Origin: Methylomonas sp. LW13
Lineage (GTDB): Bacteria > Pseudomonadota > Gammaproteobacteria > Methylococcales > Methylomonadaceae
Direction: 5' to 3'
DNA length: 64,000 bases
Assembly (NCBI RefSeq): GCF_016865255.1
Contig: NZ_CP033381.1
Location: 186,001-250,000 of the forward strand
Shown here: one piece after another, positions 2,881-17,779 of the stretch
Numbering within the stretch: position 1 is the first letter of the stretch
Layout of the letters: each line of letters begins with the position of its first letter
Made by a program: the position numbers and the translations under genes
Notes under the pieces: generated by a model
The model's database searches: none
The model's input: only the letters and a program-made list of their open reading frames with translations
What the model was told of the DNA's origin: nothing

Positions 2881-2918
2881 GGAGTATTTTGCGGATTGCA
2901 AAAGAAAAAGAAGAGGAA

Positions 2919-3262
2919 GAGTTGGCCTGTAAGCCGGGTTCTGTCTTGAACAGCCATTCATCTAGGCGTCAGATCACTCTGACGCTCAAGCAATCTACCC
3001 AGGAGCAGCGCGGGCCACGCCAATGCTCCTCTATTTGATCTTGCTCCGGGTGGGGTTTACCCTGCCACACCTGTTACCAGTTGCGCGGTGCGCTCTTACC
3101 GCACCATTTCACCCTTACCGGGTTCCGAAAAACCAGGCGGTATATTTTCTGCGGCACTTTCCGTAGGCTCACGCCTCCCAGGCATTACCTGGCACCCTGC
3201 CCTATGGAGCCCGGACTTTCCTCCCTTTTATTTGCATAAAACGGCGACTGTTCGGCCAACTC
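2919..3262 (-). ncRNA. rnpB: RNase P RNA (type A)
   Basis: Read on the minus strand, the segment begins and ends with complementary GAGTTGGCC/GGCCAACTC arms (helix P1). Near the 5' end it contains GGAGGAAAGTCCGGGCTCC followed by ATAGGGCAGGGTGCCAGGTA. Near the 3' end it contains ACCCGGAGCAAG and GACAGAACCCGGCTTA, the hallmark core of bacterial type A RNase P RNA. Length is about 344 nt. A T-rich stretch follows the 3' arm and may terminate it. The gene lies 38 bases upstream of mtnB on the same strand. Confidence 0.96.
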
Positions 3263-3270
3263 TGCTGGGG

Positions 3271-3299: not shown

Positions 3300-3558
3300 T
3301 AATTGCGCACTTTAGCTACTCAGAGAGGAATCAGACGGGATGTGATGGAGAGGTAGTCGCAAAATTCAAGTATTGGAGATCGAGAAAGTTTGCTTGATGT
3401 GTGATCTCATCTTACCCGAATGTGGGAATGCTCTAAAGGCTGGTGCTTCCGGCCAATTTGAATGTATAAGCCAATGACTACAACTTGGCTCAAATCCAAC
3501 TAATAATGGTTTGGCTGGATCCATAGCCTAAATGCGTATCAAGCTTCAAATTACTGGA

Positions 3559-3891
3559 CGGGGTTTTCTCCCGTATGCCGCGCTGAGTACCGGAGCTTTC
3601 GGCGGGATTAGCCCGTAGGGGCGACGCATGGATGCGGCGCGTTGACGAAGGGGCAGGAAGCCCCTTTCGTCAACCCCCGGCGAAAGCGAGGAACGCAGGG
3701 TGCAAGCGGCATCCGGGCCGCCTTTTCTTAGGATACTTTCTTTTGGCGGAGCACAAATTCGCCTGGAGCGAATTTGAACAGCCGGTAGGCTGGCCCGGAG
3801 GGCGAAAACCATGGACGGTTTTCGTAGCGAAAGTATCGCGGTTGTCGGTCCGCGAACCGACATTAAAACCAGCCGTCGAGCCAGCGACACA
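3559..3891 (+). repeat. Hairpin-chain repeat, copy A (long form)
   Basis: A segment of about 330 bp that recurs as copy C (17443-17779, same orientation) and as a shorter copy B (15531-15793, inverted). It is a chain of small inverted repeats, among them GCGACGCA/TGCGGCGC, GTTGACGAA/TTCGTCAAC, AAATTCG/CGAATTT, GCCC/GGGC, TTTCG/CGAAA and GTCGGT/ACCGAC. An outer pairing GCTTTCG/CGAAAGC encloses the first hairpins. It lies between rnpB and the IS110-like element. Open frames across it are coincidental. The stretch 3300-3558 before it shows no gene or motif. Confidence 0.75.
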
Positions 3892-3916
3892 TTATTTTGA
3901 AATACTTCAAATCCGC

Positions 3917-3939
3917 GTGGGCACGAAAACCGTGCCCAC
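3917..3939. repeat. REP-like palindrome GTGGGCACG/CGTGCCCAC
   Basis: Two 9-bp perfect arms (3917-3925 and 3931-3939) are separated by five bases. It lies just left of the presumed left end of the IS110-like element. IS110-family elements often insert in or next to such palindromes, so this may mark the insertion target. Confidence 0.55.
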
Positions 3940-3989
3940 CCTTGTATGATGAATTTTAACAACCGATAGCCCAGAAAAACCGATTAAGC

Positions 3990-4180
3990 TGTGATTGTTC
4001 ATTGGGAGGCCGTCCCACCCTGAGGACTGGTGGTTTACCAGAGCCTGTCGTGTAGATTGGCCCCCGCCCTATTCACCCATACCGTGGAGTATCCGAGGCT
4101 TAGAGCCTGCATACACAAGGAAGGTAGGTGCATGTGCAGGGTCGGGAACCGGTGAATAGTGTACTTCCCTTTAACTGTAT
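3990..4180 (+). ncRNA. Candidate bridge RNA (seekRNA) in the IS110 leader
   Basis: The non-coding leader upstream of the transposase contains several short hairpins: GGGAGGCCGTCCC near 4000, CTGGTGGTTTACCAG near 4027 and AGGCTTAGAGCCT near 4098, plus GTGCATGTGCA-like sequence near 4130. In IS110-group elements the left-end leader encodes a bridge RNA whose loops pair with target and donor DNA. Position, size and hairpin content fit, but the guide loops were not assigned. Support is by position and family knowledge rather than by a covariance model. Confidence 0.5.
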
Positions 4181-4192
4181 TCAAAAACGATT

Positions 4193-5230
4193 ATGACGAA
4201 CCACCCGCTCAACACCACCGCTGAATCTATCCCTCGCCTGTTTGCCGGCGTGGATGTGGGCGCCGATGAATTGGTGCTGGTGATCCGCAAGAACGGCAAG
4301 CCGTTCGATCCGCAAAAATATGCTAATACTCGTAGCGACCGTGCGCGTCTGGTGAATAAGTTGATCAAATTACCCGGCATCAAGGTCTGTCTGGAAGCCA
4401 CCGGTATTTACCATTTCGATCTTGCTATTGCGCTACACGACGTCGGTGTACCTGTGATGGTGGTCAATCCCAAGGCTTCGCATCACTTCGCTAAGGTATT
4501 GATGAAAAACAGTAAAACCGACGCCGTCGATGCCAACACCTTGGCCGAATATGTCGAGCGCATGGATTTCGTCGCCTGGACTCGTCCTTCGAATCAAGCG
4601 CTGGCTTTGCGCGGCTATGCTCGCCGTATCGACGCGCTAACCGGTCAGAAGGCCGCCGCGAAAAATCATCTACATGCGCTGAGTGCGACCGAGGAAACGC
4701 CGAAGGCCCTACTACGCGATGCCAAATTGGCGATTAGTCAGCTGGAAAAACGCATCGATACGTTGGCTGGCGAGGCGCTGGCGTTGATCGACCAGCATCC
4801 GGAACTGCAACGAATATTCGACCTGTTGACCGGCATCAAAGGCATTGCCCAAACCAGCGCCATTGCCTTGATGGGCGAACTACTGCTATTGCCGCCCAAC
4901 CTGTCGCATCGCGAATGGGTCAAGTTTGCCGGACTCGATCCCAAGGCCTTTGAGTCGGGCAAAAGCGTACACAAGAAAATGCGGTTATCCAAGGCCGGTA
5001 ACCGGCATATTCGTTCGGCGTTGTATATGCCGGCCTTGAGTGCCAAACAGCACGATCCGCATGTGCGAGCGTATTTCCAGCATTTGATCGACAACGGCAA
5101 GAAACCTTTGCAAGCCGTCTGCGCCGTCATGCGTAAATTACTGCATGCGATCCATGGCATGTTGAAGCACGATCAGCCGTTCGATAACACGCGGTTTTAT
5201 GCCATCCCTGAATCCATCATCGCCGAGTAA
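4193..5230 (+). CDS. IS110-family DEDD transposase (RNA-guided recombinase type)
   Basis: A 345-residue protein with the N-terminal RuvC-like DEDD domain (acidic residues in G-V-D-V-G-A-D-E near 21, L-E-A-T-G near 67, and K-T-D-A-V-D-A near 108). A central coiled segment follows, then the C-terminal Transposase_20 domain with L-T-G-I-K-G-I near 212, A-G-L-D-P and E-S-G-K-S near 250, and L-S-K-A-G-N-R-H-I-R. Length and domain order are complete, so it may be active. It moves the element by recombination guided by an RNA from the same element. Confidence 0.9.
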   Translation: MTNHPLNTTAESIPRLFAGVDVGADELVLVIRKNGKPFDPQKYANTRSDRARLVNKLIKLPGIKVCLEATGIYHFDLAIALHDVGVPVMVVNPKASHHFAKVLMKNSKTDAVDANTLAEYVERMDFVAWTRPSNQALALRGYARRIDALTGQKAAAKNHLHALSATEETPKALLRDAKLAISQLEKRIDTLAGEALALIDQHPELQRIFDLLTGIKGIAQTSAIALMGELLLLPPNLSHREWVKFAGLDPKAFESGKSVHKKMRLSKAGNRHIRSALYMPALSAKQHDPHVRAYFQHLIDNGKKPLQAVCAVMRKLLHAIHGMLKHDQPFDNTRFYAIPESIIAE

Positions 5231-5280
5231 AAGATGATGAAATTTGTTGCTTTTGAACAGAGTATCTACGAACTACGAAA

Positions 5281-5829
5281 CTAGCCGGATGGCTCCGCAT
5301 TTTTACCACCAAAAACGAACCGATTTCGATAGTCAAGTAGCCTTTGCCCGCGGTCTCGACACACATTAAGCATTTCATCATCTTCGATAGTAAAGACAAT
5401 GGAAAAGGTTGATAGCTCTTTATACAACGGCTTGGTGTAAGGCAGCGATTGACCAAATTCGCCATCGATCTGAAAATGCACCGATGTCCTTGATAGATTC
5501 AAAACCATATCTATAGAGCAAATAAGAAAGGTCGAATGTCCTGAGTCGGTATCGGCTGCTGCGGCATAGCCTCGAAGACAATCCATTGACCCCAAGCGAT
5601 CACCTTTGCAACTCAGACGAAATATTGGTTGTCTCCGGACTTCGTAGAGCCATCGCTCCAGAACATTAACATTGAATATCGAGAAATCAAATATGCCACC
5701 GTATGAGCTGGTATCTCCTGCGGGCCTAGAGATCGCAAAACTTGTCGGAGACAAGTGAACACTTGGGCTCTCGTAGGATAATTCGGGATGTTGATCGATA
5801 GTGACTTGACCAGTGACATCAGTTGACAC
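5281..5829 (-). CDS. Hypothetical protein, 182 residues
   Basis: The frame starts at GTG (5829) with a good GGAGG ribosome-binding site about nine bases upstream, so it is likely a real gene. The protein lacks a signal peptide or membrane segment. It is rich in Ser, Asp and Phe, with a few cysteines, and gives no recognisable motif. It lies immediately beyond the right end of the IS110-like element, convergent with the transposase, so its 3' end may have been altered by the insertion. No function is proposed. Confidence 0.5.
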   Translation of the reverse strand: MSTDVTGQVTIDQHPELSYESPSVHLSPTSFAISRPAGDTSSYGGIFDFSIFNVNVLERWLYEVRRQPIFRLSCKGDRLGSMDCLRGYAAAADTDSGHSTFLICSIDMVLNLSRTSVHFQIDGEFGQSLPYTKPLYKELSTFSIVFTIEDDEMLNVCRDRGQRLLDYRNRFVFGGKNAEPSG

Positions 5830-5887
5830 TATTTCTTCCTCCTAAAATTGATTGCGGAATAAGCGGTAATTGGTCAGAGCAAGAAAT

Positions 5888-6334
5888 TCACTCACAAACC
5901 TCCACCTCAAACACCGCCCCCTTCACCGCCACCACTTTCACCTTAGCCCCCAGCGGACTATCCTCCCCATGCACCTTCCAAACCGTGTCGTCGGCCTTAA
6001 TCTTACCCTGACCATTCTCGATAGGCGCAATCAGAAAAAAAGTCCTACCAATATATTGAGCGCCACGCTGATTCAATAAAGGATGATCGGTGGCATCCAC
6101 TGCGCGGGTGCGGGCGTATTTGCGCCAGCCCAATACCGACAACACCGCCAGTAAGGAAAACATCAATAACTGCACGTTGAACGGCGTGGCCGGCACTAAC
6201 AGCACTACCGCGCCGACGATGAACGCCGACACCGCCAACCACAGAAAAAAGAAGCCGGTGACGACGATTTCCAAGGCCAAAAAGCCGACCGCCAGCACCC
6301 ACCAGTACCAAAATACGATGTCTTGCTCCCCCAT
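5888..6334 (-). CDS. NfeD-like membrane protein
   Basis: A 148-residue protein with two or three N-terminal transmembrane helices (about residues 8-70). A C-terminal OB-fold of the NfeD type follows (R-G-A-Q-Y-I-G-R-T-F then V-W-K-V-H-G-E-D to the end). Short NfeD proteins pair with SPFH/stomatin-like proteins and are thought to scaffold them in membrane microdomains. It begins two bases after the stop of such a partner, so they form an operon. Confidence 0.85.
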   Translation of the reverse strand: MGEQDIVFWYWWVLAVGFLALEIVVTGFFFLWLAVSAFIVGAVVLLVPATPFNVQLLMFSLLAVLSVLGWRKYARTRAVDATDHPLLNQRGAQYIGRTFFLIAPIENGQGKIKADDTVWKVHGEDSPLGAKVKVVAVKGAVFEVEVCE

Positions 6335-6336
6335 AA

Positions 6337-7257
6337 TCAGGCCTTTTTGTTTAAGGCTTCTTTAGCCAGTTCGCCGATGCCGCCCAGCGCGCCGATGACG
6401 CTGGAGGCTTCCAGCGGCATGAAGATCAGTTTGCTGTTGTTGGCGGAGGCGACGTCTTTTAAAGACTCGATATATTTTTGCGCGACGAAGTAATTGATGG
6501 CCTGCACATCGCCTTTGGAGATGGCTTCCGACACCATCATCGTGGCGCGGGCTTCCGCTTCTGCCAGACGTTCGCGGGCTTCGGCGTCGCGGAATGCGGC
6601 TTCTTTGCGGCCTTCCGCATCCAAAATCGCACCTTGTTTCAAACCTTCGGCTTTCAGAATTTCCGCTTGCCGCAAGCCTTCGGCTTCCAGAATCTGTGCG
6701 CGTTTTTCCCGCTCAGCTTTCATTTGCCGGGCCATGGAATCGACCAAGTCCTTGGGCGGGGCGATGTCTTTGATTTCGATACGGGTGACTTTAATACCCC
6801 ACGGCGAGGTGGCCTCGTCGACCACGTTCAGCAGCCGGGCATTGATTTCATCACGACGTGACAAGAGTTCGTCCAGGTCCATGGAACCCATCACGGTACG
6901 AATATTGGTCATCACCAAGTTGATGATTGCCACGTCCAGGAAATTGACTTCATACGCCGCTTTGGCGGCATCCATGATCTGGTAAAAAATCACCCCATCC
7001 ACCCGCACCATGGCGTTGTCTTTGGTAATGACCTCTTGCGACGGCACGTCCAGCACCTGTTCCATCATATTCAGCTTGCGGCCGATGCGGTCGATGATAG
7101 GCATGATGATATTCAAGCCAGGCGTCAAAGTCGCGGTATATTTACCGAAGCGTTCGACGGTGTATTCCATGCCTTGCGGAACAGATTTGACGCTCATGAA
7201 CACCATCAAAACCGCAAATACCAACAACATTATTGCGAATAAACCAAAGCCGCCCAT
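6337..7257 (-). CDS. qmcA: SPFH/band-7 (stomatin, QmcA-like) membrane protein
   Basis: A 306-residue protein with one N-terminal membrane anchor (residues 3-22), then the SPFH domain ([15 protein letters not shown] ... [13 protein letters not shown]). A long Glu/Ala-rich coiled coil with repeated E-A-E-G-L-(R/K)-Q-(A/G) units spans about 190-260. These proteins oligomerise in the inner membrane and modulate membrane proteases or order lipids. It forms an operon with the NfeD-like gene two bases downstream. The symbol follows the E. coli family member. Confidence 0.88.
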
Positions 7258-7358
7258 AGCGCCTCCTAAATTATGAAAATGAATTGTGTATTGCCAACGG
7301 TCACGCGGCTAATAATAATGTATGTCTCTTTAACTTGCTGGAAACAGGGTTCCGATTC

Positions 7359-7622
7359 ATGAATACTTTGATCTACTACAGTTTTAACGTGATGATTTTG
7401 GCGGCGATTATATTGGTCGTCGGCCTGATCAAACCCAAGTGGATACTGCTGTGGATGGACAAACCCGGTCGCCTGCCTATCATCGCGATTGCCGGCGCCA
7501 TATTCATGGCCGGCGCGGTGATGTTCGGCGAAGGCAACAAACAAAAACAACAGGAACAAGCTGCGGCCGCGGCCAAGAATCCAGCCCTAAAAGGGGCTGA
7601 AGAAGTGCCGGATTTACATTAA
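7359..7622 (+). CDS. Small predicted inner-membrane protein
   Basis: An 87-residue protein starting at ATG 7359. Hydrophobic segments at about residues 12-28 and 42-58 are joined by K-P-K-W-I-L-L-W-M-D-K-P-G-R. A charged tail rich in Lys, Gln and Ala ends in E-E-V-P-D-L-H. It is divergent from the SPFH operon. The longer frame back to 7284 has no good start context and is not adopted. No named family is recognised; the two-helix layout suggests a small membrane-associated factor. Confidence 0.65.
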   Translation: MNTLIYYSFNVMILAAIILVVGLIKPKWILLWMDKPGRLPIIAIAGAIFMAGAVMFGEGNKQKQQEQAAAAAKNPALKGAEEVPDLH

Positions 7623-7733
7623 TCCGTCGCATAAATTCGCGCTGCAAATTTCGCTTTTTGCTTCCCTCACGCCAGCCCGCTCCCTGATGGTTATCAAACA
7701 GATATGCTGAAATTTGCGGTGGAAAAGATATAT

Positions 7734-9683
7734 TTAAACTCTAAAGCGCGCGACCAATCGTTTTAGAACCTGCAAATCGCCGGCTTCGCTGTCGGCTTGG
7801 TAGCGTAAGCGAATATAAAGCGCGGTAATCCGCTCAATCGCTTCGGCTAAATCCGGGCGCAGCTTTTTGGCGCGCTCGGCGACGGTTTGGGGACCGTCGC
7901 CAATGTCAACGCTTAAGCCGGCTTTACCTAACTTGGCGCAGAACTGCCGGTACAAGCGCAACGCCGGATCTTGGCGGCGCCGGTTAGGCCGCAACAAGCG
8001 CCAAGCCACGACACCACCGATACCGGCAACGCTAATCACCAGCCAATAGCCAAGCTTCACAAAGCTGTCTATTCCTAAGCTCTGTAAAAACGCTTTCTGA
8101 TTAACCGTGTCATAGTTGATAACCCAGCGTTGCCAGTTGTAATCGACGCTTTGCCACAATTGCCGGCCGCGTTGCAGCCAGGACAAGGTCTTGGCATCGA
8201 GTTGCACCGGGCTGAAATTCACCGCACCGCTAGCAATCTGTAAATCCACATTCACGCCGCGCTCGATGCGTTCCGGAGCGATGGCGGCAGTCGGGTCAAA
8301 TCTGACCCAGCCGCGTCCTTCCAACCAAGCTTCCGCCCAAGCATGAGCATCGGCTTGCCTGATCTCCAGAAAGCCGCCGACTTGGTTAATCTGCCCACCT
8401 TGATAACCGCCCACCACCCGGGCCGGAATCTCCGCCACGCGCAGCAAATAGACGAAGGCCGTGGCGTAATGGCTACAAAACCCGGCACGGCGCTCAAACA
8501 AAAACGTCTCGATGGGTTTATCCGGCATCGCTTCCGGGCTTAAGGTGTAATGAAAATTTTCCTGCCGGAAATATTGCAACAAATTGGCGATAAACAACTC
8601 GGGGCTTGCTGGCCGGCCTTGTAACTGCTTAACCAATTCGACGATTTTTTCCGACGCTTTGCCGGGTAGTTGCAAGCTTTCCCGACGCTCGGATTTACTG
8701 ATGCCGCCGGTGTTATAGGCTGGCGACGAGCTCAGCCGATACTCGGCGCGGTCGCCGGGGTTTTTGTTGGTAATTAATTGATACAAACCGTTGCGCCGCA
8801 AGCCTTCAAACTGGCTGGGCATCTCCAGCGCGAATACCCAATTCTGTTTTTGCGGCTCCATCATCAGCGTGTAATCGTAAGTCGTGCCGGTAAAAACAGG
8901 TTGATCCGGATTTTTCTCCCGCCCTAACACCGGCGGCGCTCGCCAACTTACGCCATCGGTATTGGCATACACCGGCCCGCGCCAATAGCGCTGCGCGGGC
9001 GGCGGCAGGTCGCCGGTGAATTTGACACGGAACACCAGTTCCGGCGATAGACTCAATTCGGCAATCGAGCCTGGCTCCAATGTATTGCTTAAACCGCTTT
9101 TGGCATGCGTATCATCGTCCAACCAACTCCAGTGCGGTGCTTCCAGTCGCGGGAACAACACAAACAACACCAGAGCCAGCGGCAGGCTTTGCAGAATAAT
9201 CGCCGCCGAAATTTTTAAAGCCGCCAGGGTTTGCGGCGCCTGGCTGTTTTGCGTAATCAAGGTAGCCAGCAAGACCCCGCACACCAGCAGGATATAAAGC
9301 GCCATCAAGATACTTTCTTCGTACAAAAACTGCGTCACGGCGACGATGAAAGCCAGATAAACGATCACATACACATCGCGCCGGCCGTGAATTTCCAGTA
9401 ACTTCAAACCCAAGGCCACCACGAACAGACTGGTACCGGCATCGCGGCCGAATACCGAGTGCTGCTGACTGTATAACAAGCCTATTCCCAGCAGCATCAA
9501 TAAAAACACGCCAAGCCGGTTCGGCAAATAGCGGGGCTGCCAAATACTCAGCAAGCGCCAAAGCAGCAGCAAGGTAAAAAAACTGAACAATATCGGCGGA
9601 ATATGCCAGGCATGCGGCAAGGTGATCAGGCCTATCGAACCCAACATAAACAACATCAGCCGTGTGGAGGGTAGAAACGGCAT
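7734..9683 (-). CDS. tgpA: TgpA-like transmembrane transglutaminase
   Basis: A 649-residue protein with about six N-terminal transmembrane helices (DUF3488, residues about 10-200), a periplasmic transglutaminase core, one further helix near 560 and a cytoplasmic C-terminus (DUF4129-like). The Cys-His-Asp triad is visible as R-A-G-F-C-S-H-Y-A, then D-A-H-A-W-A-E-A-W and R-F-D-P-T-A-A. It resembles Pseudomonas TgpA, an essential protein with periplasmic transglutaminase activity. ATG at 9683 lies two bases after the DUF58 stop, which favours this start over the upstream one at 9815. Third gene of a moxR-DUF58-tgpA operon. Confidence 0.9.
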   Translation of the reverse strand: MPFLPSTRLMLFMLGSIGLITLPHAWHIPPILFSFFTLLLLWRLLSIWQPRYLPNRLGVFLLMLLGIGLLYSQQHSVFGRDAGTSLFVVALGLKLLEIHGRRDVYVIVYLAFIVAVTQFLYEESILMALYILLVCGVLLATLITQNSQAPQTLAALKISAAIILQSLPLALVLFVLFPRLEAPHWSWLDDDTHAKSGLSNTLEPGSIAELSLSPELVFRVKFTGDLPPPAQRYWRGPVYANTDGVSWRAPPVLGREKNPDQPVFTGTTYDYTLMMEPQKQNWVFALEMPSQFEGLRRNGLYQLITNKNPGDRAEYRLSSSPAYNTGGISKSERRESLQLPGKASEKIVELVKQLQGRPASPELFIANLLQYFRQENFHYTLSPEAMPDKPIETFLFERRAGFCSHYATAFVYLLRVAEIPARVVGGYQGGQINQVGGFLEIRQADAHAWAEAWLEGRGWVRFDPTAAIAPERIERGVNVDLQIASGAVNFSPVQLDAKTLSWLQRGRQLWQSVDYNWQRWVINYDTVNQKAFLQSLGIDSFVKLGYWLVISVAGIGGVVAWRLLRPNRRRQDPALRLYRQFCAKLGKAGLSVDIGDGPQTVAERAKKLRPDLAEAIERITALYIRLRYQADSEAGDLQVLKRLVARFRV

Positions 9684-9685
9684 GC

Positions 9686-10636
9686 TCAAAACAGCGCCAA
9701 GGCTTGCAGGCAGTGACGGTAATGCGCGGCGCCGTTGTCCGGCGGCAGACGCAAGCCGGGCAGTACCAAGCCGTAGCGTAAGCCGGCCTGTTCGGCGTCC
9801 ACTAGCCAACGGCATAACTGGCTGAGGCGTTCTTCGGTGTGATGCCCCGGTGCCTGTTGATAATCCAACAACAATTCACTCGCACTGGCGCCGCTGTAAT
9901 GTTTACTGTGTACGCCCTGGCCTTTGGCGAAGGCTTTCCAATGGATTTGCCGAATCGCGTCGCCACGCTGATACACTCTTACGCCATCAAACTCATCCCC
10001 GCTGCGGCGGTTTTGGCCGGGTTTATCCTGACCGCCGTCGCTATCCGGAAACGGCAGTAATTTACTGGCCGGCTTGGGATACACCAGCAGCGGGCTATCG
10101 AAACGTAGTGGCGCCCAAGCCCGAAATAAACCCAAGGGGTAGGTACTGGAAAGGGTCAGCGTACCCGGCAATTGCCAGCCGCGTTGCCGGGTGGGCTGAT
10201 ACAGCGTGACGGTTTGGGTTTGTTCGGCGGCCAAGCTTATGGATAACTCGGATTGCAAAGCCAAATCCAACGCAAAGCGCGGCTGCGAACCCGGATTGCT
10301 GATCTGGAAATTAAACGGACCGGCCTGGCCGGCAAACACCGCGTGCTGCCGGGCCGGCTGAATCGCTAATCCGGCCAAGGCTTTGAAGCTGTGCAGGATG
10401 GTCACGAAAAAGATGCTGGCCAGTAAAAATCCCAGTAAATACGCCAAGTTATTGTTGTAGACAAAACCTATCAGCACCAGCAACAGAATCAACAGTACAA
10501 AAGCCAAGCCGCGTTGCGTGGGGAGAATAAATACCCGCCGCTGCGTCAACACAATCGGTCCTGCGGTCGGCGCTTCGCCGGTAAAAAAGCGCGATAGTTT
10601 AAAGCGCTGTTTTAAGGATAAGGCCGCTTCGCTCAA
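9686..10636 (-). CDS. DUF58 domain protein
   Basis: A 316-residue protein with two membrane helices near residues 40-85. The C-terminal DUF58/vWA-like region includes D-E-F-D-G-V-R-V-Y-Q-R-G-D-A-I-R-Q-I-H-W-K-A, the DUF58 signature. It probably starts at TTG (10636), overlapping the moxR stop as TTGA, a coupled arrangement. DUF58 proteins accompany MoxR ATPases and are thought to be their substrates or partners in assembling or remodelling membrane complexes. Confidence 0.88.
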   Translation of the reverse strand: MSEAALSLKQRFKLSRFFTGEAPTAGPIVLTQRRVFILPTQRGLAFVLLILLLVLIGFVYNNNLAYLLGFLLASIFFVTILHSFKALAGLAIQPARQHAVFAGQAGPFNFQISNPGSQPRFALDLALQSELSISLAAEQTQTVTLYQPTRQRGWQLPGTLTLSSTYPLGLFRAWAPLRFDSPLLVYPKPASKLLPFPDSDGGQDKPGQNRRSGDEFDGVRVYQRGDAIRQIHWKAFAKGQGVHSKHYSGASASELLLDYQQAPGHHTEERLSQLCRWLVDAEQAGLRYGLVLPGLRLPPDNGAAHYRHCLQALALF

Positions 10637-11538
10637 AATACCGGCACATGCTTGAGAATGGGCGCGACGATGGCCGCCGAATCATTGGCGCCCACGTTTA
10701 AACGATGTCCGGCCACTGCCGGCAAAACCGCTTGCAGATCTTCAGGCAACACGGCCTTGCGCTTGTCGATAAGCGCCCATGCCTTGGCGGCGGCCAGCAA
10801 ACCCAGTCCGGCCCGCGGCGACAAACCGTTGGCAAAGTCCGTGGATTGGCGGCTGAACGCCAGAATGGCTTGCAGATAATCCAGCAAGGCCTGCGATACG
10901 TGTACCTGATCCGCCGCCTGTTGCAACTCTGCCAATTGCGCGGGTAGTAACGCTACAGGCAACTCGTCGATCAAGACATGCCGGGGTTGACCGCTTAGTA
11001 ATTCCCGTTCGGCTTGCCGGCTGGGATAACCTAACTCGATACGCATCAAAAACCTATCGACTTGCGATTCCGGTAAAGGGAAGGTGCCAATCTGATGCGC
11101 CGGATTCTGGGTAGCGATGACGAAAAACGGTTGCGGCAGGGGATAAGTACGGCCTTCTACCGTTACCTGCCGTTCTTCCATCGCCTCTAATAACGCACTT
11201 TGCGCCTTGGGCGTGGCCCGGTTGATTTCGTCGGCCAGGATCATTTGTTTGAAAATTGGCCCGGGGTGAAAACTGAAGAGCTGTTGATGGGCATCGAATA
11301 CCGAGGATCCGACGATGTCGGCCGGCAAAATATCGCTGGTGAATTGAATCCGCTGATATTCCAGACCAAACAAGCGCGCCAGAGTGTGGGAGAGGGTGGT
11401 TTTGCCGACACCGGGAATGTCCTCAATCAGCAAATGCCCTCTGGCCAACAGGCAGCACACCGCCAGACGAATTTGGGGTTGTTTACCGAGAATGACTTGA
11501 TTGGCGGCGGCGAGTAAGCGGTCGAGAGCAAGGTCCAT
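10633..11538 (-). CDS. MoxR-family AAA+ ATPase
   Basis: A 301-residue AAA+ ATPase with Walker A G-V-G-K-T-T (residues 43-48), Walker B I-L-A-D-E-I-N-R-A, the sensor strand V-I-A-T-Q-N-P, and P-L-P-E-S-Q-V-D-R-F-L-M-R. These match the MoxR group, which acts as a chaperone for maturation of protein complexes with vWA-domain partners. It starts the moxR-DUF58-tgpA operon. This group is common near transglutaminase genes and does not imply a methanol-dehydrogenase role. Confidence 0.92.
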   Translation of the reverse strand: MDLALDRLLAAANQVILGKQPQIRLAVCCLLARGHLLIEDIPGVGKTTLSHTLARLFGLEYQRIQFTSDILPADIVGSSVFDAHQQLFSFHPGPIFKQMILADEINRATPKAQSALLEAMEERQVTVEGRTYPLPQPFFVIATQNPAHQIGTFPLPESQVDRFLMRIELGYPSRQAERELLSGQPRHVLIDELPVALLPAQLAELQQAADQVHVSQALLDYLQAILAFSRQSTDFANGLSPRAGLGLLAAAKAWALIDKRKAVLPEDLQAVLPAVAGHRLNVGANDSAAIVAPILKHVPVF

Positions 11539-11683
11539 TGTGCAAAAAGCTAGAAATGTCGATGACTCGAGTATAGATCAGCTTGGTTGCACCTGCTATC
11601 GGCTTCATTGTATAAACCAGGGATTGACATCCGGCCGACAGAAGCCGGTTATTAAACCATGCAGCCCTGCTGCGGAGAGCACC

Positions 11684-12025
11684 ATGAAAGACTATACCGA
11701 TGTACGCGACCAACTATTGAATATGCTGGAAGACCTGGACGACAGGCTGGGAAAAATCACCGAAGACGTCAGGCACACCGACAAACCGCTGGCCCAGGAT
11801 TTTTCCGAACAGGCCGTCGAAACCGAAAATGACGAAGTCTTGGACGCCTTGGGCAATGCTACGCGCGACGAAGTCGAAAAAATCAAACAAGCCATTTCCC
11901 GCATCGATGCCGGTACCTACGGCATTTGCCTGAGTTGCGGCGAACCCATAAAAAAGGAACGCTTGGCTGCGGTGCCGTATGCCAATCAATGTATACACTG
12001 CGCCGAAAAAAGCCAGCACCGCTAG
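11684..12025 (+). CDS. DksA/TraR-family zinc-finger protein
   Basis: A 113-residue protein with an acidic N-terminal coiled coil (about residues 1-75) and a C4 zinc finger, C-L-S-C-G-E-P-I then C-I-H-C. The spacing I-D-A-G-T-Y-G-I-C-x-x-C-G-x-x-I is characteristic of DksA/TraR-type proteins, which bind the secondary channel of RNA polymerase. The ATG at 11684 has a GGAGAG site upstream. It is shorter than true DksA (about 150 residues), so it is probably a DksA-like paralogue. Confidence 0.85.
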   Translation: MKDYTDVRDQLLNMLEDLDDRLGKITEDVRHTDKPLAQDFSEQAVETENDEVLDALGNATRDEVEKIKQAISRIDAGTYGICLSCGEPIKKERLAAVPYANQCIHCAEKSQHR

Positions 12026-12141
12026 GCCGATCCACCACTCACCAGCATAAGGGTTGCTGCCAAGCAGGAATAAGCCGGCCGGTTTTGAATTGTGTACTAT
12101 CCTTGCCGACGATCATTCCTTTTATTGTTGGGACATAAATC

Positions 12142-13179
12142 ATGGATATCGCCGAACTCTTGACCTTTTCCGTCAAAAACAAAGCCTCCGACTTGCATCT
12201 TTCCGCCGGCCTGCCGCCGATGATTCGGGTGGACGGCGACATCCGCCGTATCAATATCCCGTCCTTAAATCACAAGGAAGTCCACGCGCTGATTTACGAC
12301 ATCATGAACGACAAGCAGCGCCGCGATTACGAAGAGTTTCTGGAAACCGACTTCTCGTTCGCGCTGCCCGGCGTGGCTCGCTTCCGGGTCAACGCCTTCA
12401 ATCAGGATAGAGGCGCCGGCGCGGTATTCCGGACCATTCCGTCCAAGGTGTTAACCCTGGAAGAATTGGACGCGCCGAAATTTTTCGCGGAATTGTGTAC
12501 CAAACCGCGCGGCCTGATTCTAGTGACCGGCCCAACCGGTTCCGGTAAATCCACCACGCTGGCGGCGATGGTGAATCACATTAATACCAACGATTACGCA
12601 CACATCCTGACCGTCGAAGACCCTATCGAGTTTGTCCACGAAAGCCAGAAATGCCTAATCAACCAGCGCGAAGTACATCGCGATACCTTAGGTTTCAACG
12701 AAGCCTTGCGCTCGGCACTGCGGGAAGACCCGGACATCATTCTGGTGGGTGAGATGCGGGATTTGGAAACCATCCGCCTGGCCTTGACCGCCGCGGAAAC
12801 CGGCCACTTGGTGTTCGGCACCCTGCATACCACCTCGGCCGCGAAAACCATAGACCGGATTATCGACGTGTTCCCTGCCGCCGAAAAAGATATGATCCGG
12901 GCCATGCTGTCCGAATCCTTGCAGGCGGTTATCTCGCAAACGCTATTGAAAAAAGTCGGTGGCGGCCGGATTGCCGCCCACGAAATCATGGTCGGCACCC
13001 CTGCCATCCGCAACCTGATCCGCGAAGCCAAGGTGGCGCAGATGTATTCCGCGATCCAAACCGGCCGTAAAGACGGCATGCAGACGCTGGATCAAAACCT
13101 GAAGGAATTGGTCGACAAAGGCTTGATTACTGCGAAAGGCGCGATGGTCAAAGCCGTCAACAAAGATATGTTCCGTTAA
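12142..13179 (+). CDS. pilT: PilT, type IV pilus retraction ATPase
   Basis: A 345-residue hexameric ATPase that drives type IV pilus disassembly and twitching motility. Walker A G-P-T-G-S-G-K-S-T is at residues 130-138. The Asp box T-V-E-D-P-I-E-F-V-H, Walker B D-P-D-I-I-L-V-G-E-M-R-D and His box T-G-H-L-V-F-G-T-L-H-T follow. The C-terminal A-I-R-N-L-I-R-E motif (AIRNLIRE) is diagnostic of PilT. It is followed after 15 bases by pilU. Pilus structural genes are not in this window. Confidence 0.97.
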   Translation: MDIAELLTFSVKNKASDLHLSAGLPPMIRVDGDIRRINIPSLNHKEVHALIYDIMNDKQRRDYEEFLETDFSFALPGVARFRVNAFNQDRGAGAVFRTIPSKVLTLEELDAPKFFAELCTKPRGLILVTGPTGSGKSTTLAAMVNHINTNDYAHILTVEDPIEFVHESQKCLINQREVHRDTLGFNEALRSALREDPDIILVGEMRDLETIRLALTAAETGHLVFGTLHTTSAAKTIDRIIDVFPAAEKDMIRAMLSESLQAVISQTLLKKVGGGRIAAHEIMVGTPAIRNLIREAKVAQMYSAIQTGRKDGMQTLDQNLKELVDKGLITAKGAMVKAVNKDMFR

Positions 13180-13194
13180 ATTTTAGGAGGCGTC

Positions 13195-14328
13195 ATGGAC
13201 TTTAAAGCCCTATTGGCCCTGATGGTGGAAAAGAAAGCGTCCGACTTGTTCATCACCGCCGGCCGGCCGCCGTCGATGAAAGTCAACGGCAAAGTCGTCG
13301 AAGTGTCCAAATCCGTTTTAACTAGCGAACAGACCATGATGCTGGTTCTCAGTATCATGTCGCAGCGCCAACGCGACGAGTTTGAAAACACTCACGAATG
13401 CCAGTTTGCCTTGAGTGCCCACAGTCTTGGCCGGTTCCGGGTCAGTGCGTTTACCCAACGCGACTCGGCCGGCATGGTGTTGCGCCGCATCGAAACCACC
13501 ATCCCCAGCGCAGAGGAATTGCACCTGCCGCCGGTGTTGAAAGAACTGATCATGTACAAGCGCGGTCTGGTGATGTTTGTCGGTGCCACCGGTACCGGTA
13601 AATCCACCTCGCTGGCGGCCTTGATTCGGCACCGCAACGAAAACAGCAGCGGCCATATCATTTCCATTGAAGACCCTATCGAGTTTATCCATCCGCACAA
13701 GGGCTGCATCATCACCCAGCGCGAAGTGGGCCTGGATACCGAATCGTTTGAAGTGGCGTTAAAAAACACCCTGCGCCAAGCGCCGGACGTAATCCTGATT
13801 GGCGAGGTCAGAAGCCGGGACACCATGCAACATGCGATCACCTTCGCCGAAACCGGGCATTTGTGCGTCTGTACCCTGCACGCCAATAACGCCAACCAGG
13901 CCTTAGACCGCATTCTGCATTTTTTCCCGGAAGAAATGCACAGCCAGCTGTTCATGGATTTGTCTTTGAACTTGCGCGGTATCGTCGCCCAACAATTGAT
14001 TCAGCGCGCCGACGGCAAGGGCCGCTACCCGGCTATTGAGATTTTGCTGAATACCCCGCTGGCATCAGACATGATCCGCAAGGGCGAAGTACACAAATTA
14101 AAAGAACTGATGAAAAGCTCCCGCGAGCATGGCATGCAGACTTTCGACCAAGCGCTTTACGATCTGTATACGGCGGGTAAAATTGGTTACGATGACGCCT
14201 TGCACGCTGCCGACTCCCGCAACGAGGTGCGCCTGATGATTAAACTGGGGGCCGAGAACGTCAACTTCGAAACCGCCGGCATGACCCTGGCCGAAAACGA
14301 CGACGAGGGAGGCAGTCTTTTTAAATAG
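13195..14328 (+). CDS. pilU: PilU, accessory type IV pilus retraction ATPase
   Basis: A 377-residue PilT paralogue. Walker A G-A-T-G-T-G-K-S-T is at 130-138, with S-I-E-D-P-I-E-F-I-H and A-P-D-V-I-L-I-G-E-V-R. It has a longer, acidic C-terminal tail typical of PilU. PilU works with PilT to add retraction force. A strong AGGAGG site seven bases before ATG marks the start. It forms an operon with pilT. Confidence 0.95.
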   Translation: MDFKALLALMVEKKASDLFITAGRPPSMKVNGKVVEVSKSVLTSEQTMMLVLSIMSQRQRDEFENTHECQFALSAHSLGRFRVSAFTQRDSAGMVLRRIETTIPSAEELHLPPVLKELIMYKRGLVMFVGATGTGKSTSLAALIRHRNENSSGHIISIEDPIEFIHPHKGCIITQREVGLDTESFEVALKNTLRQAPDVILIGEVRSRDTMQHAITFAETGHLCVCTLHANNANQALDRILHFFPEEMHSQLFMDLSLNLRGIVAQQLIQRADGKGRYPAIEILLNTPLASDMIRKGEVHKLKELMKSSREHGMQTFDQALYDLYTAGKIGYDDALHAADSRNEVRLMIKLGAENVNFETAGMTLAENDDEGGSLFK

Positions 14329-14345
14329 CCCTGGATATAACTCGC

Positions 14346-15527
14346 TTGTATACATTTAGTACTAGTAAAGTCTCGCTACAAAACGCCGGTTCGGCACTGT
14401 TAATAACACTTTTGGCGGGCTGCGCCTCGCAGCCGCCCGCCGGCGATAAAGCCAATACTCGCGTCCGCACACCCACCCAACAAACCGCGCCCAACCAGTC
14501 GCGCCAAGCCACGCCGGACTTACGGCCGTTCGCCAGCGTCGGCGGCTATCACGCTACAGCCGTCACCGGTGATTACGCCGGCTATCCGGCTTTGAACCAG
14601 TTCATCGAACAGATGGTGCAAAAGCACGGCTTTAACCGCGAATATCTGCAAGGCCTGTTCTCGCAAGCCAAACGCAAGCAATGGACGTTGGATTATCTGG
14701 CCAAATCCGATCAGGGCATGAAAGGTAAAACCAGCAAAGGCGGCTGGACCCGCTACCGCGCGCAATTTCTGGACGACCGGCATATCAACGCCGGCATCAG
14801 CTTCTGGCAACAGCATCATGCAACGCTGCAACGCGCCAGCCAGCAATACGGCGTGCCGGCCGAATACATCCTGGGCATCATGGCCGTGGAAACCACTTTC
14901 GGCAGCTTCGTCGGCAACCATAGAATCATCGACGCGCTAACGACCTTGGGCTTTGACTACCAGCGGCGTGGCGAATATTTCCGCAGCGAACTGGAAAATT
15001 TTCTGGTGATGAGCCGTAGCGAGGGCCTGGACCCCGGCAAACCGGTCGGCTCCTTCGCCGGCGCAATGGGCCTGGGCCAATTCATGCCCGGCAGTTTTTT
15101 GCAATGGGCGGTGGACTTTAACGGCGACGGCCGCCGCGACCTGTGGAATCCGGAGGACGTGATCGGCAGCGTGGCCAATTATTTTGCTCAGCACGGCTGG
15201 CAAGCCGGTCAACCCATCGTCTCGGCCACACGCGGCAGCTTCCATGGCATCGACAGCCTGGAACCCGGCGCGGACCATGCTTATTCTTTGGATACCTTGG
15301 TTAAAGCAGGTGTGGAACCGGCTGACACATGTGCTTGCGATTATCCGTTGCGGCTGTTGTTGCTCAGGCATCAAAGCAAAGACGAATACTTGCTGGGACA
15401 TCCTAACTTTTATGCGATTACCCGCTACAACCAGAGCACGCACTATGCGATGGCGGTGCATGAGTTGGCGTTGGCGATTAAGAGGGGGTATCAGAGGGTG
15501 GCTGTTAATCGGTCTGATGCTGGGTAG
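14346..15527 (+). CDS. mltB: MltB-type lytic murein transglycosylase (lipoprotein)
   Basis: A 393-residue membrane-bound lytic transglycosylase (SLT_2/MltB family) that cleaves peptidoglycan glycan strands. The N-terminus carries a lipoprotein signal with lipobox L-L-A-G-C at about residue 26. The catalytic Glu is in I-M-A-V-E-T-T-F-G-S-F near 182, followed by A-G-A-M-G-L-G-Q-F-M-P-G-S-F near 240 and the C-terminal goose-lysozyme-like fold. The start is probably TTG with a weak ribosome-binding site, 15 bases after pilU; an exact start is uncertain. Confidence 0.88.
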   Translation: MYTFSTSKVSLQNAGSALLITLLAGCASQPPAGDKANTRVRTPTQQTAPNQSRQATPDLRPFASVGGYHATAVTGDYAGYPALNQFIEQMVQKHGFNREYLQGLFSQAKRKQWTLDYLAKSDQGMKGKTSKGGWTRYRAQFLDDRHINAGISFWQQHHATLQRASQQYGVPAEYILGIMAVETTFGSFVGNHRIIDALTTLGFDYQRRGEYFRSELENFLVMSRSEGLDPGKPVGSFAGAMGLGQFMPGSFLQWAVDFNGDGRRDLWNPEDVIGSVANYFAQHGWQAGQPIVSATRGSFHGIDSLEPGADHAYSLDTLVKAGVEPADTCACDYPLRLLLLRHQSKDEYLLGHPNFYAITRYNQSTHYAMAVHELALAIKRGYQRVAVNRSDAG

Positions 15528-15530
15528 GAT

Positions 15531-15793
15531 TTTTGTGTCGCTGGCGCGACGGCTTGATTTAATGTCGGTTCTTGGACCGACAACCGAGATACTTTTCTTT
15601 GCTTGTCCAAAGAAAAGTATCCAAAAGAAAAGACACCCGGATGCCGCTTTGATCCTCCGCTCCTCGCTTTTGAACGGGGTTGCCGAAAGGGGCTTCCTGC
15701 CCCTTCGGCAACGCGATGCATCCCTGCATCGCCCCTGCGGGCTATTCCGCTCAAAAGCTCCGGTGCTCGGCGCGGCATACGGGAACAAAACCA
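15531..15793 (-). repeat. Hairpin-chain repeat, copy B (short form, inverted)
   Basis: Read on the minus strand this matches copies A and C at both ends, but lacks about 90 bp of the middle hairpins (the AAATTCG/CGAATTT to AAAACC/GGTTTT section). It retains the outer stem GCTTTTGAGCGG/CCGTTCAAAAGC (one G-U pair), hairpin GCGATGCA/TGCATCGC, hairpin GTTGCCGAA/TTCGGCAAC and the terminal GTCGGT/ACCGAC and GTCGC/GCGAC stems. It starts four bases after the mltB stop. Confidence 0.75.
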
Positions 15794-15817
15794 TCCCGAT
15801 TTCACGATACCCCGTAG

Positions 15818-15884
15818 GTACGATTAGCGGAGCGTAATCGTACGCAAGACTCACATCCCCCCGATTACGCTTCGCTAATCGGGG
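15818..15884. repeat. Two palindromes of a GATTAGCG...CGTAATC family
   Basis: Two adjacent inverted repeats: GTACGATTA/TAATCGTAC at 15818-15843 and CCCCGATTA/TAATCGGGG at 15859-15884. Both have a GC-rich centre built on GCGNAGCG or its complement. A related palindrome, CGGGTTA/TAACCCG, occurs at 41545-41571. They look like REP-type intergenic repeats and may stabilise or terminate transcripts. Nothing else is evident between here and the gene ending at 16028. Confidence 0.6.
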
Positions 15885-16027
15885 CTACGATGCTATAGAT
15901 AAGTGTCAATCCTTTAGTCTCCATCGGGTAAAACCAGCTGGATTTAATGAGTTGGCCTTTTTGGTCATCGGTTACCGTTGTCATAGTTTTCCGCTGTTTG
16001 TATGTAAGTTAAAATTTAAAGTAAGCT

Positions 16028-16597
16028 TCATGGTTCCATGTATTTTCTAAGGCCCTGTAAATCATCGGGTATATTGGATACATTGGTGCCACATTCATCT
16101 TGATTGTTTTCACCGCAAAGCAATTGTTTTAGATTGCTATATTTACTCATTTTTTTTTCAAAAAATTGAAAAAAAATAGAGTCTTGAATAGTAATATTAA
16201 TGAATTTATCTTTATAGGCGATAAAAACACGCCAAGGTACACTTACACTTTCCTTTGCCCGCTCAAGCTTTTTTGAGGCATCAAATGGAAGCGATAAAAA
16301 TACATCCACCAGTTCATTCAACTGCTCTGCTGTCATCTGTGCATAGCGGTCTTCGGATTCACTACCAAAATCAGTTTTGTTGCGGTGAAAATGGACTTTG
16401 CCATCGGGATATATTTTGATAACGGAAGTAGGAACGCCGCCCCAGGTATGCGTCAACTCGAAAACAGGCTCGGGATTAGTTTCTGCCAAGCTGTTTTGGC
16501 ATGACAATAAGGTGAAACAGAAGGCTGCAAGGCGCAATAACCAACAGGCATTGCGCTGTATTTTCAAACTATTCAAAATCATATAAAACTCCATCAA
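16028..16597 (-). CDS. Exported hypothetical protein
   Basis: A 189-residue frame with an N-terminal signal peptide. Cleavage may follow S-L-A-E; alternatively L-L-S-C could be a lipobox, so it may be a lipoprotein. The mature part has S-V-I-K-I-Y-P-D-G-K-V-H-F-H-R near residue 60, a lysine-rich middle, and a C-terminal pair of cysteines. The base composition is clearly more AT-rich than its neighbours, which suggests acquisition. The start could be MMEFY or MILNS. No domain is confidently recognised. Confidence 0.55.
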   Translation of the reverse strand: MMEFYMILNSLKIQRNACWLLRLAAFCFTLLSCQNSLAETNPEPVFELTHTWGGVPTSVIKIYPDGKVHFHRNKTDFGSESEDRYAQMTAEQLNELVDVFLSLPFDASKKLERAKESVSVPWRVFIAYKDKFINITIQDSIFFQFFEKKMSKYSNLKQLLCGENNQDECGTNVSNIPDDLQGLRKYMEP

Positions 16598-16750
16598 TTA
16601 CCGTTATCACGCGCAATAGGGGCCAGGTCTTGCATTAACGCATTATTATTTTTCATGCGGATAATCTCCAGGTTTTATCATTTGCCGCATTGCCAACGGC
16701 GGAGGCGTTGACTCCTGTCCATCCGTTGAGCCGATCAACGGTATTATCTC

Positions 16751-16773
16751 GTTCCCACGCGCCGCGTGGGAAT
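16751..16773. repeat. REP palindrome 3' of the RAYT gene
   Basis: TTCCCACGC and GCGTGGGAA are perfect arms separated by three bases (GCC). The same palindrome occurs on the other side of the RAYT gene at 17392-17414, so the transposase is bracketed by its own REP sequences. Confidence 0.75.
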
Positions 16774-16797
16774 GCAAACCAGCCGCGCTGCGGTCAG

Positions 16798-17334
16798 CTA
16801 AAACCAATCCCGATAAACCGGCAACAATCCATCCTGCCCCGCATAATTCCGGGCACTCGAATACCGCCAATGCTCCGGTAAATCGACATAGCCGCGTTTG
16901 ACCGGATTCAGGTGGATATAGTCTAATTTCTGCCGCAAGACGTCGGGGTTGTCGATCAACTGCGGATGACTACCTTCTTCCCACAACTGATAATCCCGGT
17001 CGGTTTTATGAGCCTTGCGAAACCAGTTCAATTGCTTCAATAAGCGCTCGGCGTTAATGGCTTGCAAATAATCGATCAGCTGGCGCGCGGTGTATAATTT
17101 GAAGTGGGCCAATTGATGGGATAAATCGTCAACTTGTACCAGCAAATGCAAGTGATTTTCCAAAATGACGTAGCCGTAAATTCGCCAATTGTGCTGCTGT
17201 TGACGGTAAATCAAGGCGTCCAGCACGATTTGCACGGTAGCCGGGCGCGTGAATAACGGTATCCAGTTAAGTACGGTACAGGTTATGAAATGCGGCTGCT
17301 GGGATTGGAGAATGCGGTAACGACTGCGGCCCAT
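16798..17334 (-). CDS. REP-associated tyrosine transposase (RAYT)
   Basis: A 178-residue Y1-type transposase (IS200-like, TnpA_REP family). The metal-binding H-x-H is in I-L-E-N-H-L-H-L-L-V near residue 60. The family C-terminal signature Y-I-H-L-N-P-V-K-R-G-Y-V is near residue 140 and S-S-A-R-N-Y near 160. RAYTs process REP sequences as single-stranded DNA and are tied to spread of REP/BIME elements. It is flanked by a matching palindrome on each side. The length is complete, so it may be functional. Confidence 0.92.
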   Translation of the reverse strand: MGRSRYRILQSQQPHFITCTVLNWIPLFTRPATVQIVLDALIYRQQQHNWRIYGYVILENHLHLLVQVDDLSHQLAHFKLYTARQLIDYLQAINAERLLKQLNWFRKAHKTDRDYQLWEEGSHPQLIDNPDVLRQKLDYIHLNPVKRGYVDLPEHWRYSSARNYAGQDGLLPVYRDWF

Positions 17335-17390
17335 GGGTTTGACCTCGTTTGCTTGCTTTGTCGTATGTTACCGCTGGCGCGGATAGTCTG

Positions 17391-17415
17391 CGTTCCCACG
17401 CGGCGCGTGGGAACG
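17391..17415. repeat. REP palindrome 5' of the RAYT gene
   Basis: GTTCCCACGC (17392-17401) and GCGTGGGAAC (17405-17414) are perfect 10-bp arms with a 3-base loop. It matches the palindrome at 16752-16772 and lies about 57 bases upstream of the RAYT start. Confidence 0.78.
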
Positions 17416-17442
17416 AGGAAATACTAAATAACATCCAAAGCG

Positions 17443-17779
17443 AGGTACGGTTTTCTCCCGTATACCGCGCCGAGCACCGCAGCTTTTGAACGGAGCAGCC
17501 CGTAGGGGCGATGCATGGATGCATCGCGTTGCCGAAGGGGCAGGAAGCCTCTTTCGGCGACCCCGTTCAAAAGCGAGGAGCACAGGGAATAAGCGGCATC
17601 CGGGTGGCCTTTTCTTTGGATACTTTCTTTTGGCGAAGCACAAATTCGCCGGGAGCGAATTTGAACAGCCGTCAGGCTGGCCCGAAGGGCAAAAACCAGG
17701 GATGGTTTTCGTAGCGAAAGTATCTCGGCTGTCGGGCCGAGACCCGACTTACAAATAACCCGTCGCGCCAGCGACACAA
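17443..17779 (+). repeat. Hairpin-chain repeat, copy C (long form)
   Basis: It is the same element as copy A. The outer stem is GCTTTTGAACGG/CCGTTCAAAAGC. Inner hairpins include GCGATGCA/TGCATCGC, GTTGCCGAA/TTCGGCGAC, AAATTCG/CGAATTT, CAGCC/GGCTG, GCCC/GGGC, AAAACC/GGTTTT, TTTCG/CGAAA, GTCGGG/CCCGAC and GTCGC/GCGAC. Comparison with A shows paired changes in several stems. It lies between the 5' REP of the RAYT and the end of the MBL-fold gene. Confidence 0.75.

Follow-up and report, generated by a model that had tools for sequence, protein, structure and literature searches.

The window analysed here, a stretch of 64,000 nucleotides from the genome of Methylomonas sp. LW13 (bases 186001-250000 of a single contig of 5,233,523 bases), contains three copies, designated A, B and C, of a repeated element that is predicted to fold into stems, hairpins and a pseudoknot. 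Comparison of these copies with others in the same genome, in the genus and in more distant bacteria led us to favour, on balance, the reading that the elements form structured borders of gene cassettes that can be exchanged. Both the fold and the pairing of the elements are well supported, and comparison between genomes indicates that the genes enclosed by a pair are exchanged at fixed sites.

The three copies are real and lie where the first-pass annotation had placed them, and about 49 copies or part-copies are listed for the LW13 genome, including those in the fetched stretches. That annotation overlooked that copy B, of the short type (15535..15793, minus strand), and copy C, of the long type (17443..17777, plus strand), are the left and right ends of one unit of 2243 bp (15535..17777). 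The unit is bounded by GTGTCGC...GCGACAC, and the 3' ends of its elements, at 15535 and 17777, face outward. Copy A, also of the long type (3559..3890, plus strand), has its 3' end (GCGACAC) at 3890, and no partner copy was found within the fetched 7 kb around it.

The divergent arrangement recurred throughout the family when neighbours within 4 kb were counted from the listed coordinates. The LW13 genome yielded 19 divergent, 1 convergent and 1 same-direction pair, and three relatives together yielded 36, 1 and 8, respectively. Contigs with at least two listed hits in the class-wide list gave 22 divergent, 0 convergent and 5 same-direction pairs, and loci from the named genomes, scored by eye over the same distance, gave 8, 0 and 2. 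The 3' ends are sharp and outward-facing, with GTGTCGC starting 16 of 17 tabulated units, and the bases at +1 to +7 beyond 181 distinct 3' ends at genus loci were A-rich, with 1-7% G. No obvious target-site duplications were seen by eye at the printed units.

Some loci depart from the two-ended unit. At L117 (G031:C2:191200-194000, 490-1021) two tandem elements that are 85% alike have the same last 30-odd nucleotides, and a 23-bp copy of the flank lies between them. Solos of 75-77 bp, made up of one central hairpin between two terminal hairpins, replace a whole unit at L149 (573-647) and at L162 (in the place of L116 1361). Several units have in common a module of about 100 bp immediately inward of the 5' end (interior 53-158 of L036, among others), in which part of the element's 5' end is sometimes present a second time.

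The fold was evaluated on the single copy C and on an alignment of many copies. Copy C, the only copy folded singly, folded better than each of 100 shuffles on both strands (z of -5.3 and -5.9). Alignment A1 comprised 66 of the 103 distinct short copies (B, other LW13 copies and genus relatives), with 37 short, 29 long and 6 other copies excluded; its 74 pairs were formed in 98.3% of 4,860 cells, and 40 of the 74 pairs showed two-sided change (506 cells). None of 500 shuffles reached any of five covariation measures, and slid versions of the structure paired 40-49% of cells, a comparison that leans towards the drawn structure because the structure was drawn from the same sequences. Because copies swap parts and covarying states can spread by conversion, the cell counts overstate the number of independent events; in two genomes of one species, the pseudoknot block of one element differs and its ends are identical. 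The two-sided changes on which the first-pass annotation had based its proposal were recovered, namely GTTGCCGAA/TTCGGCAAC in B versus GTTGACGAA/TTCGTCAAC in A and GTCGGG/CCCGAC in C versus GTCGGT/ACCGAC in A and B, and the proposal itself, selection on a folded strand of RNA or single-stranded DNA, is confirmed far beyond three copies. Helices P0-P3 contained 100 G.U cells and 8 A.C cells (111 and 22 over all drawn helices), an excess which favours the outward strand as the folded one (RNA, or single-stranded DNA of the same strand).

The fold consists, in order, of an outer stem (CCCG/CGGG and ATGCCGC/GCGGCAT), an inner stem with two hairpins, the pseudoknot, a hairpin GTCGGK/MCCGAC, a terminal hairpin and a final AC. 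Stem S1 of the pseudoknot is TGTC/GACA, with the variants TGGC/GCCA, CCGC/GCGG and TCGC/GCGA, and stem S2 is ATACTTTTCTTTG/CAAAGAAAAGTAT or ATACTTTCTTTTG/CAAAAGAAAGTAT. In copy B, all on the minus strand, sequence and covariation analysis placed the pseudoknot with its predicted triple helix at 15589..15635, with S1 formed by TGTC (15635-15632) and GACA (15607-15604), loop L1 at 15631-15621, and S2 formed by 15620-15608 and 15601-15589; the terminal hairpin GTCGC-GCCA-GCGAC, followed by AC, occupies 15535..15550. Copies A and B retain S1; the corresponding segments of copy C, judged by eye, are not complementary (TGGC versus GCGA).

The 3' part of the element is predicted to form a pseudoknot with a U.A-U/C+.G-C triple helix. 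Loop L1, which is TTTTCTTTTGG or CTTTTCTTTGG, runs parallel to the purine strand of S2 and places T over A or C over G at eight positions in all 65 gap-free rows of A1, and two of the eight positions co-vary in letter (36 rows versus 29). Other parallel registers matched at 48-63% and antiparallel ones at 76% at most in the same alignment, and L1 is the mirror image of the 5' strand of S2, not a copy of it, as a triple helix requires. Among the class-wide hits a simple parse fitted every triple position in 30 of 42 (2 of 44 were unparsable), and 87% of positions matched in register versus 43-60% in six other registers. Several of the misses arose where the parse ran one base too far and a few were true mismatches; further states, such as TTCTCTTT over AAGAGAAA, were also present. 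An independent scan of the named genomes, whose search pattern specified S2 and a portion of its loop and nothing else, gave at least 126 matches in at least 120 stretches. Among the matches listed, 103 of 113 distinct upstream contexts hold TTTCTTTT (the loop strand), 95 of 113 have a 3-bp S1 and 82 of 113 a 4-bp S1 complementary to the free loop base, and 22 contexts also hold a triplet that fits another base. Many matches were in Methylomonas and other Gammaproteobacteria, and the same arrangement was seen in Selenomonadaceae, Leeuwenhoekiella, Desulfobulbus and others.

The two size classes that had been suspected from three copies were borne out in 138 distinct complete copies, of which 103 were short (about 260 bp), 29 long (about 330 bp) and 6 other; complete copies span 235-399 bp, and at one site in two genomes of one species (L298/L051) the elements differ by the long/short block. 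A whole-genome search with copy C gave at least 81 matching pieces, the best 40 of 69 candidates being scored. The same query matched 33 of 36 genus genomes, and no element was found by it in the other three, G001 (83% complete), G023 and G032. A covariance model of the 3' domain (R1), built from 45 copies, matched 92 of the 369 genomes sampled from the class, representing 75 of 272 genera; the E-values of R1 are rough, and the best values in 7 of the 92 genomes were only 1e-6 to 1e-4. Collections of plasmids, phages and E. coli contained 2, 0 and 0 records with an element, respectively.

In Pfam, Rfam 15 and the open literature covered, the elements matched neither a coding gene nor a named repeat, either of which would have spoken against the first-pass annotation. 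A coding function was considered and rejected, as open reading frames (ORFs) running through the elements had no Pfam match. No Rfam 15 family matched the element: the window gave only RNase P RNA above the gathering cut-off, a further comparison gave five weak matches, none near a cut-off, and ten loci from other genera and phyla gave none. No description of the element was found in the open PubMed Central literature, a scope that mostly excludes subscription papers and bioRxiv preprints.

The joined flanks of five LW13 units located the sites of these units in 17 genus genomes. Among the 16 genomes fetched for site L036, ten were filled, one had only one flank and five had flanks 26-84 bp apart with no element, which provided the empty sites that the first-pass annotation had proposed to compare; the LW13 cargo of this site was common to one of the ten filled relatives (L123). 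At the window's site, the gene for a transposase associated with repetitive extragenic palindromes (REPs), the REP-associated tyrosine transposase (RAYT), is retained in L147, L148 and L150, with 89-95% across these three and LW13, and the other genes differ, while in L149 the unit is reduced to a 75-bp solo. Sites common to LW13, G011, G018 and G031 had up to four contents, with four different contents at L053/L188/L195/L208 and likewise at L042/L187/L197/L200.

Genome G427, assigned by the tool to the same species as LW13, permitted a closer comparison at 11 sites, two of which had interiors that were too short. Eight of the nine comparable interiors share 0-22% of their sequence, and the flanks that could be located are 84-99.9% identical (for L287/L036 this was a single flank); at the window's site all of the LW13 cargo is kept, with an inserted IS110. 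Two G427 genes closely match the genes that occupy their sites in other species (L282 versus L182, site L039, 98% over 534 amino acids; L288 versus L146, site L035, 92%), which suggests that cassette alleles circulate by site. The breakpoint at L050/L283 falls 115 bp within the left element and, on the right, coincides with the 5' edge of the element there, which differs in its pseudoknot block as well. Three further interpretations were rejected. A swap of gene plus downstream element at L050/L283 does not agree with the base-level alignment, in which the 5' domain of the right element is kept; the outer 30 nucleotides staying with the site at each exchange was seen in single cases only and is not general; and several G427 units that had been taken for new sites have flanks that prove to be LW13 sites.

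A pair of elements surrounds one to a few unrelated accessory genes, often of defence type, or no gene at all. The majority of the first 40 cargo ORFs scanned from LW13 and its relatives had no Pfam match. The matches that were found include Mrr, PIN, MqsA-like HTH, cupin, DUF1152, DUF3644, DUF4357, FRG, HSDR_N, GNAT, cold-shock plus DUF1294, and Y1_Tnp, and larger cargo includes HNH, dCTP deaminase, SIR2, a retron-sized reverse transcriptase, an AAA/Abi-like ATPase, and IS1595 and Mutator transposases. PADLOC matches among ten cargo tested were Mrr, PDC-S19, SIR2 and dCTPase. Units without an ORF of more than 70 amino acids also exist (L180, L187, L189, L207 and L215), and the interiors of the LW13 units are 35-51% GC. 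Single-protein tracking found Mrr to be sporadic (19 of 61 genomes), with its nearest relative (70%) in an element-free genome, and in one instance homologous cargo occupied two different sites (L050 versus L208, 57%). The unit at L201 (G018:C1:495700-501600, 3532-4482) carries a retron-sized reverse transcriptase of 316 amino acids and a 285-amino-acid gene without Pfam match. In the window, the B-C unit carries two genes on the minus strand, one for a protein of 189 amino acids that appears lipoprotein-like by eye and has no Pfam or NCBIfam match (16028..16597), and one for the RAYT of 178 amino acids (16798..17334; NF047646, 96.5 bits).

If the elements are cassette boundaries, cargo may be swapped mainly by homologous recombination, with the flanks and near-identical elements serving as arms, because breakpoints lie at the edges of or inside elements and the same cargo allele recurs per site in other species. 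The occupation of new sites would have required a trans-acting enzyme. Cargo genes in either direction would be transcribed into an element, and their transcripts would end in the fold, which may be kept because a host or mobilising factor binds it or because it protects the transcript.

Several observations weigh against this interpretation. The two ends of a unit resemble each other no more than randomly chosen copies do (median 79% versus 77% over 39 units, a comparison disturbed by long/short differences), in which they differ from the ends of a recent transposon. Single and tandem copies also occur, and the RAYT at the window's site is stable in four species and in the second genome of this species. 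Helix SwA, which is incompatible with SwB, is paired in 95% of cells with 10 A.C and 0 G.U. In addition, exchange is read from genome comparison and the transcript ends are predicted, and recombination alone does not by itself explain the conservation of the fold across phyla.

A more far-reaching reading is a dedicated cassette system, in which a phylum-spanning RNA family with a telomerase-like triple-helix pseudoknot would be the recognition signal. Individual accessory and defence genes would be inserted into, excised from or replaced at fixed chromosomal sites by an enzyme that reads the fold at both ends of a unit, in a functional counterpart of integrons with inverted, RNA-like ends. 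We put this forward only tentatively. As partner enzyme, RAYT, TnpB, integron integrase and reverse transcriptase fail to track with the elements (IscB was outside the search), and reverse transcriptase was not found in the element-bearing genomes G021, G025, G016 and G427.

It is unlikely that the inverted pair is an outsized REPIN or TIRtron, that is, a non-autonomous transposon whose folded single-stranded DNA is recognised by a RAYT-type HUH transposase and whose ends have trapped the cargo between them. Passages in the literature describe inverted doublets in REPINs (PMC3116915) and RAYT genes flanked by long terminal inverted repeats (TIRs) (PMC3733652), and RAYTs do lie inside units at two sites (LW13, L147, L148 and L150; and L158, L160 and L161); the units without ORFs and the 75-77 bp solos would also fit. 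However, the RAYT-linked mobility that the first-pass annotation had suggested was not upheld, in that RAYTs are present in 36 of 37 genus genomes, including G001, G023 and G032, the three in which no element was found. Only 4 of 27 LW13 loci contain a RAYT or fragments, although the genome has 21 RAYT matches, and the RAYT of the window has its own REP-like palindromes beside it.

An improbable alternative is that the element acts solely in the 3' untranslated region, where the triple helix would stabilise or regulate the cargo transcript, and that cargo turnover is ordinary recombination unrelated to the fold. RNA triple helices that stabilise transcripts are known (MALAT1), every cargo gene in either direction has a sense-oriented element downstream, and the preponderance of G.U over A.C in P0-P3 (100 to 8) is in line with such a role. 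However, units without ORFs retain both elements, and the pairing recurs in other genera and phyla, which suggests that it is inherent in the element.

Still less probable is an integron-like system in which the folded strand is the site for a site-specific recombinase. The cargo resembles that of integrons (orphans, restriction, toxin-antitoxin, acetyltransferase), the last 30 nucleotides and the flank are identical between L118 and L119 while the body is 75% alike, the solos retain two terminal hairpins and one central hairpin, and the main cargo ORFs are one-directional at L032 (10 of 10) and L035 (6 of 6). However, cargo orientation is mixed at L043 (3 to 2), tail segments at orthologous sites are generally no more alike than background, and the inverted pairs occupy dispersed sites, in contrast to the direct-repeat arrays of integrons; an integron integrase above the curated cut-off was present in 14 of 37 genus genomes and was not found in the LW13 genome.

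An RNA-guided system, with the element as guide scaffold and the flank past its 3' end as guide, is very improbable. In its favour, the flank directly adjoins the 3' end, a pseudoknot triplex stands beside the guide in some Cas12/TnpB guide RNAs, and in one case, L117, two elements 85% alike share their last 30-odd nucleotides and a 23-bp flank, but TnpB (PF07282) was found in only 3 of 37 genus genomes, one of them the element-free G032, and not in LW13 (IscB was outside the search).

If the elements do bound exchangeable cassettes, a large share of the strain-specific accessory and defence genes of Methylomonas would belong to one recognisable cassette type, and the elements would serve as a handle for locating genes of this kind elsewhere. 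Conservation of a triple-helix pseudoknot in repeats found across phyla would mark a new RNA family with a partner protein to find.

Other features of the window lie close to the elements. The statement of the first-pass annotation that no transposase is encoded holds for the element itself and fails for its surroundings, where the RAYT lies between B and C and an IS110-family transposase (4193..5230, plus strand) lies beyond copy A, outside the element. The IS110 element starts about 20 bp past copy A, and an identical transposase is located beside or inside another copy in L048; in G427, the L057 element has one inserted next to it (L295), and next to copy B there is a different IS110 transposase, of 325 amino acids (L280). 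REP-like palindromes are present at these insertion places (copy A, L048, L295 and L280), and passages of an earlier report describe the insertion of insertion sequences into REPs as a known phenomenon (PMC1525189). The palindrome GTTCCCACGC/GCGTGGGAAC at 17377-17417 adjoins the RAYT gene and recurs in several other fetched loci. The RNase P RNA gene (RF00010, 361.8 bits) is located at 2914-3263, about 300 bp from copy A.

The cassettes described here share features with several known systems. The minimal mobile elements of Neisseria are allelic gene cassettes at a fixed site that are exchanged by homologous recombination, and different genes at one site between conserved flanks were likewise found here; to our knowledge, a structured repeat pair is not part of that concept. 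Integron cassettes carry mostly orphan, defence and toxin-antitoxin cargo with a structured element beside each gene, and the type of cargo and the structured element per gene are alike here, whereas no integrase was found in the LW13 genome. The telomerase-type triple helix is formed by an H-type pseudoknot whose U-rich loop occupies the groove of a U-A stem; S1, S2 and the covariation between loop and purine strand were all found in the present elements, with the helix itself predicted, but these elements are bacterial, multicopy and paired around genes, and no reverse transcriptase tracks with them. REPINs and BIMEs, as described in passages of PMC3116915, are also inverted doublets of structured repeats that are extragenic, non-autonomous and present in many copies per genome; REPIN units are hairpins of 20-40 bp, whereas the present elements are 260-330 bp with a predicted pseudoknot triple helix and have genes between them, and the tracking with a cognate RAYT that characterises REPINs was not seen. 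TIRtrons (TIRYT), according to passages of PMC3733652 that make no mention of folded RNA, cargo exchange or Methylomonas, have long inverted repeats around a RAYT-type gene, like the B-C unit; a tyrosine transposase between long inverted repeats is present at the window's site and at a few others, but most units hold other genes. Because each known family considered, within the literature covered, either differs from the present elements in a defining feature or lacks the fold, the paired elements appear to represent a new kind of element.

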